A stretch of DNA of 64,000 bases, taken from Aliiroseovarius salicola (GTDB taxonomy: Bacteria; Pseudomonadota; Alphaproteobacteria; Rhodobacterales; Rhodobacteraceae). Below are positions 4,163 to 63,124 of the stretch, piece after piece. The stretch lies in contig NZ_JAQIIO010000003.1 of the NCBI RefSeq assembly GCF_027891095.1, forward strand, positions 310,001 to 374,000. Reading direction: 5' to 3'. The position numbers and the translations under genes were made by a program. The number at the start of each line of letters is the position of its first letter. The first letter of the stretch is position 1. Under the pieces are notes generated by a model. It ran no database searches. It was not told where the DNA came from and saw nothing but the letters and a program-made list of their open reading frames with translations.

Positions 4163-4503
4163 ACGCGGGGTCCAGTATTCGGTTTCAGTGTTCGATTACA
4201 ACGATCTTGCGGGTATGTAGGGGAAAGGGCGCAGCGGCGCAAGTCGCCTTTGCGGCGCTAAGGCGGATCTGTGCAGAATTTGGTTGGAATGCATCCTGTC
4301 AGTCGCGTTTTTTAGTTGTCAGCTCGAAATGGCTGCGCCTTCTTCGAAGAAAACTAGAAAACTAGAAAACTAGAAAACTAGGATTCTGGTTTTGTCTTCT
4401 GCCAAACATGCACGCCTTTTTGCATCTGCGGCGAATTAGCTGTTCCCCAAGCGGCAGAGTCCCGCTATGACGGGCCGGGTTTTCTTTGAGATAGGAACAG
4501 ACC
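4163..4503. other. Intergenic region secG / purA
   Basis: 341 bp between divergent secG and purA. It holds a 12-bp palindrome TTCTTCGAAGAA (4340-4351) that runs directly into the four-core CTAGAAAA array, then the box TTCTGGTTTT and TGCCAAA before purA. Promoters for both genes must lie here; no clear -35/-10 pair stood out. Confidence 0.6.
4349..4381 (+). repeat. CTAGAAAA tandem array 1 (4 cores)
   Basis: CTAG occurs at 4354, 4362, 4370 and 4378 in exact 8-bp register, separated by AAAA. It lies about 120 bp upstream of purA and is followed by GATTCTGGTTTT. The same unit forms arrays upstream of hflK (15237) and cpoB (31075), in the same orientation relative to the downstream gene. Confidence 0.95.
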
Positions 4504-15198: not shown

Positions 15199-15236
15199 AT
15201 TTAGGGCTTGCGACCGGGTGTTGAGTTTTCATTTTA

Positions 15237-15256
15237 CTAGAAAACTAGAAAACTAG
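15237..15256 (+). repeat. CTAGAAAA tandem array 2 (3 cores)
   Basis: CTAG at 15237, 15245 and 15253 in 8-bp register. The last unit continues into TTTTCTGGTTTT, which makes a perfect 16-bp palindrome AGAAAACTAGTTTTCT (15247-15262 region). It lies about 130 bp 5' of hflK and shares its 3' box with array 1. Confidence 0.93.
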
Positions 15257-15389
15257 TTTTCTGGTTTTTTGCCAAAATCGAATTTTCACAGCTGGAAATG
15301 TTCCGCAACGCCGGGCTTTGACTTGAAAAACTGCGCACGAAAGTCCAGTTATTGTGCCGAAGCTTTGACCAAACAAGGATAACAACCAT

Positions 15390-31030: not shown

Positions 31031-31060
31031 GGTCAGAGAATGACTTGATTTTCTCTGACC
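31031..31060 (+). terminator. Hairpin after pal
   Basis: Perfect 10-bp stem GGTCAGAGAA / TTCTCTGACC with a 10-base loop, 20 bp behind the pal stop. There is no strong T run, so it may be a 3' stabilising hairpin or partial terminator before cpoB. Confidence 0.7.
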
Positions 31061-31074
31061 AGGGCGTTGTTTTC

Positions 31075-31166
31075 CTAGAAAACTAGAAAACTAGAAAACT
31101 AGAAAACTAGAAAACTAGAAAACTAGAAAACTAGAAAACTAGAAAACTAGAAAACTAGAAAACTAG
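31075..31166 (+). repeat. CTAGAAAA tandem array 3 (12 cores)
   Basis: Twelve CTAG cores from 31075 to 31163 in perfect 8-bp register with no mismatch, ending in CTAG-TATTCTG and immediately followed by the cpoB ribosome binding site. It is the longest of three arrays; the others are 5' of purA and hflK. Confidence 0.97.
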
Positions 31167-31186
31167 TATTCTGAAAGGTGGTTCGG

Positions 31187-62010: not shown

Positions 62011-62034
62011 CTGATTCTGTACTAAGTTTGAAAC

Positions 62035-62226
62035 TTAGTGGGTCAGGATGGTCATCGAGCTCAGTTCGCTGGAGATTTTGTCGGCCAGCGAGGTGGTGCC
62101 ACCCGAGACCGAAGTCAGCACGGCGATGCCCAGACCCACGATGGCTGCGGTCAGCACGACCCAGTCGACGGTCACGGCGCCATCTTCGTCAGATTTGAAT
62201 TTGTTGATCAGGTTGAAGAGTTTCAT
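62035..62226 (-). CDS. flp: Flp pilin, copy 1
   Basis: 63 residues, the shortest class IVb pilin type. Leader up to DEDG, then AVTVDWVVLTAAIVGLGIAV as the hydrophobic assembly segment; the +5 acid is Asp. ATG at 62226 is chosen because AAGGA lies eight bases upstream; an ATG at 62232 is too close to it. The protein is identical to copies 2 and 3. Confidence 0.93.
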   Translation of the reverse strand: MKLFNLINKFKSDEDGAVTVDWVVLTAAIVGLGIAVLTSVSGGTTSLADKISSELSSMTILTH

Positions 62227-62276
62227 GGTCATATTCCTTGAATGTCTAGTTGGTCAGGTCACTTAAGGTGAGAACC

Positions 62277-62468
62277 TTAGTGGGTCAGGATGGTCATCGA
62301 GCTCAGTTCGCTGGAGATCTTGTCGGCCAGCGAGGTGGTTCCGCCCGAGACCGAAGTCAGTACGGCGATGCCCAGACCCACGATGGCAGCGGTCAGTACG
62401 ACCCAGTCGACGGTCACAGCGCCATCTTCGTCAGATTTGAACTTGTTGATCAGGTTGAAGAGTTTCAT
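62277..62468 (-). CDS. flp: Flp pilin, copy 2
   Basis: 63 residues, same protein as copy 1, with about ten silent nucleotide differences. Same leader sequence in front (AAGGAATATGACC). See copy 1 for motifs. Lies 242 bp from both neighbours. Confidence 0.93.
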   Translation of the reverse strand: MKLFNLINKFKSDEDGAVTVDWVVLTAAIVGLGIAVLTSVSGGTTSLADKISSELSSMTILTH

Positions 62469-62518
62469 AGTCATATTCCTTGAATGTCTAGTTGGTCAGG
62501 TCACTTAAGGAGTGAACC

Positions 62519-62710
62519 TTAGTGGGTCAGGATGGTCATCGAGCTCAGTTCGCTGGAGATTTTGTCTGCCAGCGAAGTGGTCCCGCCAGAGACCGAAGTC
62601 AGTACGGCGATGCCCAGACCCACGATGGCTGCGGTCAGTACGACCCAGTCGACGGTCACGGCACCATCTTCATCACTCTTGAACTTGTTGATCAGGTTGA
62701 ACAGTTTCAT
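62519..62710 (-). CDS. flp: Flp pilin, copy 3
   Basis: 63 residues, same protein as the other copies but the most diverged at silent sites. Its start has a different upstream sequence (GGGACGAAT) and it is the first gene of the array from the promoter side. An upstream ATG at 62803 in frame would add 31 residues with no pilin character. Confidence 0.9.
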   Translation of the reverse strand: MKLFNLINKFKSDEDGAVTVDWVVLTAAIVGLGIAVLTSVSGGTTSLADKISSELSSMTILTH

Positions 62711-63124
62711 ATTCGTCCCTCCGGTTAGGTGTTCAGTCACGTTGTCTTCCAAGCGCAACTCTGTGAACCACCTATGTTTCAGATCCTCAGTGCCGCTCGG
62801 CATGGATAAAAATTAGCCTGTTGATTGGGGCAAGAGTTGGGCAGGTTTCGTTCCTTTTTGGGAATCTTAACTTTTTTTGTGACTTTGAGGGTAAGCTCAT
62901 GAAATATATGCGGAATAAAAATAGAAAAAATTAATTTCATAATGGGAGAAGTCGTGGCGGTGGCAATTTATGTCACGAGTTTGATAGGAATTTCTGGTGT
63001 TTTTGCCTGCGATTTGCAAAAAATCGAATAGAAAAGAAAGGGAATAATCCCAAAGCAGAGGTCCTTGTTTGCAGAGAGGGCCCAAATAACAGAGACAGGC
63101 AGCAAGAGAGCAGTGTTGAATGCC
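62711..63124. other. Intergenic region flp / transglycosylase
   Basis: 414 bp between divergent genes, strongly AT-rich around 62860-62950. An inverted pair ATGAAAT / ATTTCAT (near 62900 and 62935) is visible. It must hold the promoter for the flp and tad series on minus and one for the transglycosylase on plus. No gene is supported. Confidence 0.6.

Follow-up and report, generated by a model that had tools for sequence, protein, structure and literature searches.

A dispersed intergenic palindrome of Aliiroseovarius whose arms occur as tandem octamer arrays, often faced by TTGAC

Why do tandem copies of the octamer CTAGAAAA stand upstream of purA in Aliiroseovarius salicola, and again near hflK, at loci with no evident relation to each other? 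We analyzed a window of 64,000 nucleotides of the A. salicola genome (contig NZ_JAQIIO010000003.1, positions 310,001 to 374,000, forward strand), in which CTAGAAAA occurs 16 times against 0.70 expected from shuffled sequence (shuffle maximum 3). A first-pass annotation of this DNA had described an array with a 3′ box upstream of purA and a second array, followed by a similar box and TGCCAAA, at hflK. Both are confirmed: the purA array has four CTAG cores and lies 122 bp upstream of the purA ATG (4504), and the hflK array with its box and TGCCAAA spans 15237–15276. The window contains three arrays with the following parts.

4354..4381, + strand: (CTAGAAAA)3-CTAG array in the secG-purA gap (secG on the − strand, purA on the + strand)
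4382..4393, + strand: GATTCTGGTTTT, the opposite (inverted) palindrome arm that forms the 3′ box at purA; it pairs with a repeat unit in the DNA fold (z −3.7)
4400..4406, + strand: TGCCAAA at purA, judged a chance resemblance outside the element
15237..15256, + strand: (CTAGAAAA)2-CTAG array in the gor-hflK gap
15257..15268, + strand: TTTTCTGGTTTT, the opposite arm at hflK, forming a 13-bp hairpin with the array
15270..15276, + strand: TGCCAAA at hflK
31075..31166, + strand: (CTAGAAAA)11-CTAG array of 11.5 units between an OmpA-family (Pal-like) gene and a TPR (CpoB-like) gene
31167..31173, + strand: TATTCTG, the cut-off opposite arm of the third array

Pal and CpoB are the names of the proteins that the OmpA-family and TPR neighbors of the third array resemble.

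A search of the whole A. salicola genome (G000; 3.58 Mb, 32 contigs, 99.98% complete) revealed 25 CTAGAAAA arrays of 1.5 to 13.5 units, with no preferred unit number, every one of them intergenic. The list is complete for arrays of at least two units, the counts of three array words in the loci being equal to those in the genome (138, 148 and 91); the search for 1.5-unit arrays relied on CTAGAAAACTAG with a base other than A after it and may have let some escape. In all we read 65 arrays in five genomes: 25 in A. salicola, 15 in A. crassostreae (G292; two of these rows are one array split by an insertion), 14 in A. lamellibrachiae (G164), 9 in the metagenome-assembled genome (MAG) UBA2553 (G296) and 2 in G072. 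None of the 65 lies inside an open reading frame as called by our codon-usage script, which was used in place of an annotation, and four tandem CTAGAAAA units contain stop codons in all six frames, so that no frame can be translated through them. The 25 arrays have the properties of short tandem repeats, in that their units are short and tandem and the arrays are dispersed, intergenic and variable in copy number.

What the first-pass annotation had not recognized is that the 3′ box TTCTGGTTTT repeats the unit in inverted form and makes up the opposite arm of a palindrome. Its form at hflK, TTTTCTGGTTTT, is an inverted copy of repeat units with one G:T change, and array and box are therefore the two arms of one palindrome. 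The core of the element is a near-perfect palindrome of 36 bp, AAAACCAG-AATACTAG-TTTTCTGG-TTTT, with short outer pairs. A box of the form NNTTCYNG follows the 3′ end of 13 of the 25 A. salicola arrays and is found at the other end of one; over all 65 arrays the counts are 41 and 2, box frequencies outside A. salicola being biased upward, since the arrays of G292, G164 and G296 were collected through matches that included the box. The composite element proposed earlier stands in this part, as array plus box, but its third component does not: TGCCAAA lies within 40 bp of only 2 of the 65 arrays, which are the purA and hflK pair themselves, and its presence there is judged to be chance. An array built from the other arm also exists, (CTGGTTTT)n at L347 of G296, and a variant array, (CTAGGAAA)n, is found at L134 of A. 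crassostreae. Folded as DNA, the bare palindrome scores z −6.7, the one-unit form beside argJ in A. salicola (L103) −5.3, and the purA, hflK and third window arrays −3.7, −4.2 and −7.1, with none of 200 shuffles as good in any case; at hflK (15230–15276) the fold is a 13-bp stem.

Forms with 0, 1 and 10 units coexist at a single locus. In the argJ gap, A. crassostreae has the bare 36-bp palindrome TAACAAAACCAGAATACTAGTTTTCTGGTTTTGTTA with no units (L338), A. salicola has a similar palindrome with one extra CTAGAAAA in its center (L103), MAG UBA2553 has one unit and a doubled CTGGTTTT, and A. lamellibrachiae has ten units. The same gap in 17 other congeners is 8–34 bp long and contains no element. 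Five ortholog comparisons show the array inverted relative to A. salicola (L105-L340, L108-L133, L111-L152/L139, L120-L347 and hflK-L161); among these, L340 and L347 hold a single unit, and in a further comparison, L103-L338, orientation is undefined because L338 is the bare palindrome. Expansion of one arm together with shrinkage of the other would yield inverted orthologs without any movement of the element.

The family is narrowly distributed. AAAACTAGAAAACTAG was found in 3 of 292 genomes drawn from the order, A. salicola included. Of 21 congeners, 4 gave BLAST matches to the array that lay beyond the secG and purA genes, and these 4 were also the ones with the CTAG-plus-box pattern; short arrays could escape these scans. 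The four array species are A. salicola, A. crassostreae, A. lamellibrachiae and MAG UBA2553, and in the genomes searched the family is restricted to their clade. A tree of 3.58 kb (purA and two argJ-region genes) gathers the 17 array-less species on the same side of a branch with 100/100 support; on this topology one gain, or one loss in the 17, would suffice for the distribution. The tree of purA alone sets the array species apart as pairs, requiring two changes (85/86 at the dividing branch); an AU comparison on the 3.58-kb tree gave constrained and free trees of equal likelihood and is thus uninformative.

Within this clade the elements keep their places. At 20 of the 25 A. salicola loci, one or more of the three other species also have an element in the corresponding gap (with A. 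crassostreae, 17; with MAG UBA2553, 13; with A. lamellibrachiae, 11), all of these counts being lower bounds because the arrays of those species were only partly sampled; for L101, L107, L117, L118 and L119 the sampled arrays included no ortholog with the element. All three species also have the purA-gap array, oriented alike and with no resemblance of the left flanks visible by eye, and the third window array has 15.5 units in A. crassostreae, 10.5 in A. lamellibrachiae and 2.5 in MAG UBA2553. The gor-hflK array sits between the gor terminator and a probable hflK promoter in A. salicola, A. crassostreae and A. lamellibrachiae, inverted in the last, again with left flanks that look unrelated by eye.

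15322..15354, + strand: CTTGAA...CAGTTAT, probable hflK promoter, downstream of the array; CTTGAA is present in all six species compared

The motif of this probable promoter is heat-shock-like. The gap holds no insert in the array-less genomes G234, G298 and G012. Element-free gaps exist in congeners, with flanks too different for an insertion boundary to be read, or for the target-site duplication that, with terminal inverted repeats, would mark a MITE. The earlier view that the arrays are a dispersed element and not the product of chance slippage is supported, both by the single structure that array and box form and by the 20 of 25 loci with an element in an orthologous gap. Slippage alone would also not account for arrays in 4 of 21 congeners that share a side of the 100/100 branch.

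A second feature that the earlier description lacked is the word TTGAC, which often faces the array. TTGAC occurs in 34 of 130 flanks where 5.3 are expected from DNA 300–700 bp away. At 19–42 bp from the array and aimed at it we counted 35 against 3.2 expected, an approximately tenfold enrichment, and only 4 aimed away; this expectation comes from array-free A. salicola gaps only (29 occurrences in 14,334 bp, both strands). The word lies to the CTAGAAAA side of 21 TTGAC-anchored arrays and to the opposite side of 13, where the array reads TTTTCTAG from TTGAC; no array has it on both. In the TTTTCTAG-reading class TTC follows 29–31 bp from TTGAC in 13 of 13 arrays (about 7 independent loci, in a search range of 15–32 bp that we chose), and in the CTAGAAAA-side class 24–30 bp from it in 17 of 21. 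Some copies overlap coding sequence or starts, as at the Pal C-terminus in L163 and in GTCAATG at the yidD start in L110, L137 and L143. For 22 of the 65 arrays no TTGAC-like word lies in range on either side; these include the purA and hflK arrays of the window. Nor is a clear TTGAC seen at the bare palindromes L338 and L339. Related words near the window arrays are the following.

4316..4320, + strand: TTGTC, a possible degenerate TTGAC facing the purA array, starting 38 bp before it; weak at this locus
15208..15212, + strand: TTGCG, where the A. lamellibrachiae ortholog has an array-facing TTGAC (by eye)
31045..31049, + strand: TTGAT facing the third array, starting 30 bp before it

Orthologs keep TTGAC more often than they keep its spacer. 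Its side agrees in 33 of 48 ordered comparisons of orthologs between the two species pairs, whereas other 5-mers of the same flanks recur in 64 of 576 and TTGAC is shared between non-orthologous arrays in 292 of 1,014. By locus, 8 of the 12 ortholog groups that span both species pairs and have TTGAC keep it on the same side; the groups were listed by hand and the comparisons are not independent. That TTGAC persists while the sequence around it is replaced is the strongest sign of selection in these data. We considered that TTGAC might belong to the promoters of the neighboring genes and rejected this, as it is aimed at the array and not at the genes and is present in convergent gaps too.

The account that we favor, and to which we give about an even chance of being right, is that the family is a dispersed, palindromic, slippage-amplified and clade-specific repeat that carries a selected bipartite TTGAC-array site and is inherited in place. 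About 25 intergenic palindromic elements would have been present in, or have entered, the ancestor of the four Aliiroseovarius species. As their arms are built of octamers, slipped-strand or hairpin-assisted copying could lengthen one arm octamer by octamer into (CTAGAAAA)n, the unexpanded arm being what we see as the 3′ box; now and then the opposite arm would grow instead, and the result would resemble an inverted array. We infer this order of events, and slippage as the amplifier, from the forms seen at orthologous loci. The elements would then have been inherited in place. A single TTGAC stands beside about half of them, to one side only, and points to the array across an unconserved spacer. 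TTGAC and array together may form a bipartite site in duplex DNA, read by a protein or contacted by RNA polymerase as a −35-like element; such a site would act regardless of the direction of the neighboring genes, and selection on it would keep the elements in place. A bolder form of the proposal, in which TTGAC plus array is a new alphaproteobacterial cis element, namely a duplex site for a putative nucleoid or transcription factor, usable in either orientation and with 0 to about 16 units, set between core genes irrespective of their direction and kept by selection, is tentative, and we think it more probably wrong than right.

To our knowledge, dispersed tandem repeats of 6–9 bp have rarely been reported in bacteria and have no assigned function. 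Here one such family can be followed across four species at the same gaps, the forms at argJ and elsewhere suggest a route from palindrome to array and to apparent inversion, and the conserved TTGAC helps to tell selection from mere slippage. Whether such repeats act becomes directly testable on about 25 defined loci.

The strongest competing explanation is neutral, and we regard it as a real though minority possibility. It holds that the family is the remnant of an old burst of a non-autonomous, perhaps selfish, palindrome with microsatellite-like arms, whose arrays are homogenized by slippage and tolerated in gaps. Neither orientation nor neighbor function is biased, copy number varies freely from 0 to 16.5 units, and 22 of 65 arrays do without TTGAC, all as such a history would have it. 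The A. salicola arrays occupy 8 convergent, 5 divergent and 12 tandem gaps, compared with 8, 24 and 35 among the array-free gaps of 100–700 bp in the A. salicola DNA sampled (n = 67). The mild convergent excess (8/25 vs 8/67, p = 0.033, uncorrected; for the divergent deficit p = 0.21) would be expected if insertions near promoters had been removed. Slippage cannot explain the retention of TTGAC at 33 of 48 comparisons against 64 of 576 for spacer words and 292 of 1,014 for unrelated arrays, however, and 20 of the 25 loci have kept the element, even though at purA and hflK the left flanks of the species show no resemblance to the eye.

The position of TTGAC also raises the possibility that the elements encode short non-coding transcripts, with TTGAC as the −35 box, a start near the beginning of the array and the hairpin ending the RNA. 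TTGAC is aimed at the array from roughly promoter distance, the arrangement is independent of gene direction, and RNA hairpins of −15 to −19 kcal/mol are predicted for four typed elements. A σ70 promoter has a TTGACA-like −35 and a TATAAT-like −10 at 16–18 bp; here the word is both enriched and kept, but no −10 consensus follows it, the best second block, TTTCTA, being the edge of the array. Nor is the transcribed strand of the array conserved, with 21 arrays reading CTAGAAAA and 13 reading TTTTCTAG from TTGAC and with inverted orthologs, and the window contains no Rfam match at gathering score. We consider this reading unlikely.

A weak bidirectional terminator, or an insulator hairpin between transcription units, could account for a palindrome with A-rich and T-rich ends and for the position of some arrays between transcription units, for example after the gor terminator. 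The stem is very AU-rich, however, long one-armed arrays lose the symmetry, and 5 of the 25 arrays lie in divergent gaps; ordinary G+C-rich terminator-like hairpins are moreover seen by eye as separate structures at gor and adjoining L100, L115 and L127. Such a role is very improbable.

We give slightly less credence to the regulon, or gene-linked regulatory element, that the first-pass annotation had proposed as one of two readings, noting that all three arrays point in the same direction relative to the gene downstream. This is true of the three window arrays, but genome-wide 11 of 25 point with the next downstream gene and 14 of 25 against it, the mixed orientation that had been named beforehand as counting against gene linkage, and 8 of 25 lie in convergent gaps. 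A genome-wide list of downstream genes had been proposed as a check; the 25 arrays have 50 neighboring genes, 46 with a Pfam match and 4 without, which are unrelated housekeeping genes with no Pfam function in common. They include secG, purA, a pyridine-nucleotide reductase (gor-like), an hflK-type Band_7 protein, OmpA-family and TPR proteins, rnpA-yidD, argJ, a carbamoyltransferase, hemC, a formyltransferase and rpsB. Orthologs may be inverted, as in the gor-hflK gap of A. lamellibrachiae, and the hflK array is upstream of the probable promoter and would lie outside the transcript.

Finally, that the arrays were written by a telomerase-like reverse transcriptase or moved by a REP-associated Y1 transposase fits perfect tandem octamers at dispersed sites around a palindromic core, RVT_1 matches in G292, G164, G296 and G072 and 8 Y1_Tnp matches in G292, but is close to negligible as an explanation, given that A. 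salicola (99.98% complete) has no RVT_1 match and array-less G234 has one, and that Y1_Tnp is without a match in A. salicola, G164, G296 and G072; a diverged or lost enzyme is possible.

REP/BIME elements have a GTAG or CGTC tag at one end. The Aliiroseovarius element resembles them in being a dispersed intergenic palindrome, which at 36 bp (L338) falls inside their 20–40 bp class, and differs in having only about 25 copies and arms amplified into octamer arrays. Neither end of TAACAAAACCAGAATACTAGTTTTCTGGTTTTGTTA bears GTAG or CGTC, the tags given for these palindromes in the part of the source used here (PMC3733652), and the associated RAYT transposase (Y1_Tnp, PF01797) has no match in A. 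salicola, G164 or G296 and 8 in G292. By tag and transposase, the family is not a REP element.

Closer parallels are found among short tandem repeats, each compared through a partial account. The STRRs of filamentous cyanobacteria are described in the text drawn on here as short tandem heptamers that are intergenic, numerous, capable of forming hairpins and without known function (PMC2670836). The Aliiroseovarius arrays share the short tandem units, the intergenic placement, the hairpin potential and the abundance, but they are alphaproteobacterial octamers and not cyanobacterial heptamers, and so are not STRRs proper; they differ further in originating from a palindrome arm, in their TTGAC anchor and in being kept at orthologous loci across species, a comparison made here for the Aliiroseovarius loci and not for those of STRRs. 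The GGGNATC heptamers of Xanthomonas and Nostoc are likewise dispersed, over-represented in non-coding DNA and highly variable, with 2–26 units, and according to the same source are G-rich, proposed to form G-quadruplexes, preferentially of four units and located between aligned genes (PMC4692102). Our arrays are similarly dispersed, non-coding and variable in unit number; unlike the GGGNATC repeats they are A/T-rich, have no preferred unit number and are not in excess between aligned genes (12/25 arrays vs 35/67 array-free gaps). Dispersed tandem octanucleotides, some on both strands, are also reported as predicted binding sites of global regulators in Geobacter metallireducens, with the sequences GTTGCTYN and TWGTTGAY, about four units and, in the portion of that report considered, no description of long arrays (PMC2700814). 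The Aliiroseovarius family is like these sites in consisting of dispersed tandem octamers. By kind, as far as these partial accounts extend, it joins dispersed short tandem repeats such as the STRRs and the GGGNATC repeats. It is set apart from the dispersed repeats known to us by its palindromic origin and its TTGAC anchor. In the literature searched, judged mostly by title, we found no earlier description of the CTAGAAAA repeat, which does not prove that none exists.

The octamer also occurs outside the genus, in at least the following lineages among the matches listed in a scan of the genome collection. Halocynthiibacter namhaensis (G311) has 113 copies of CTAGAAAACTAG, against 1 of the backward control. 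Three MAGs of Robiginitomaculum have 36, 10 and 14 copies (controls 0, 0 and 2), a Vibrio genome has 40 (control 0), with CTAGCAAA units beside the array that was read, and an Anaerolineales MAG has 4. Among viral sequences the 17-base word was found in 46 contigs, none of them with an array of more than 1.5 units. Eight Halocynthiibacter arrays were read. Two of them, L410 and L414, repeat the Aliiroseovarius arrangement of an array-facing TTGAC with TTCA before the array, and the right ends of some of the eight are CYGGTTTT-like; the TTGAC-array layout may therefore recur in this genus. If the TTGAC-array proposal is right, the Halocynthiibacter layouts and the Robiginitomaculum and Vibrio arrays would mean that this system has been used again elsewhere or transferred.

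Several other repeats and inserts were observed beside the arrays. At L219 of the gammaproteobacterium Vibrio sp. 05-20-BW147 a CTAGAAAA array runs into a CTAGCAAA array. The Halocynthiibacter arrays L411, L412 and L413 have near-identical right flanks with a terminator-like hairpin and are located near contig ends, suggesting that the flanks are part of a larger repeat that breaks the assembly. In the argJ gap of A. crassostreae a separate dispersed repeat of about 115 bp (L338:2049–2163) adjoins the bare palindrome; it has about 20 copies in that genome and more diverged matches in several congeners, and is absent from the A. salicola argJ gap. The L135 array of A. crassostreae is split directly at CTAG by an insert of about 830 bp with 9-bp inverted ends, which may be an IS insertion into the repeat, and an end partly similar to this insert adjoins the L136 array of the same genome. 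The window itself contains, at 62030–62711, a 242-bp unit in 2.8 tandem copies with 94% matches.
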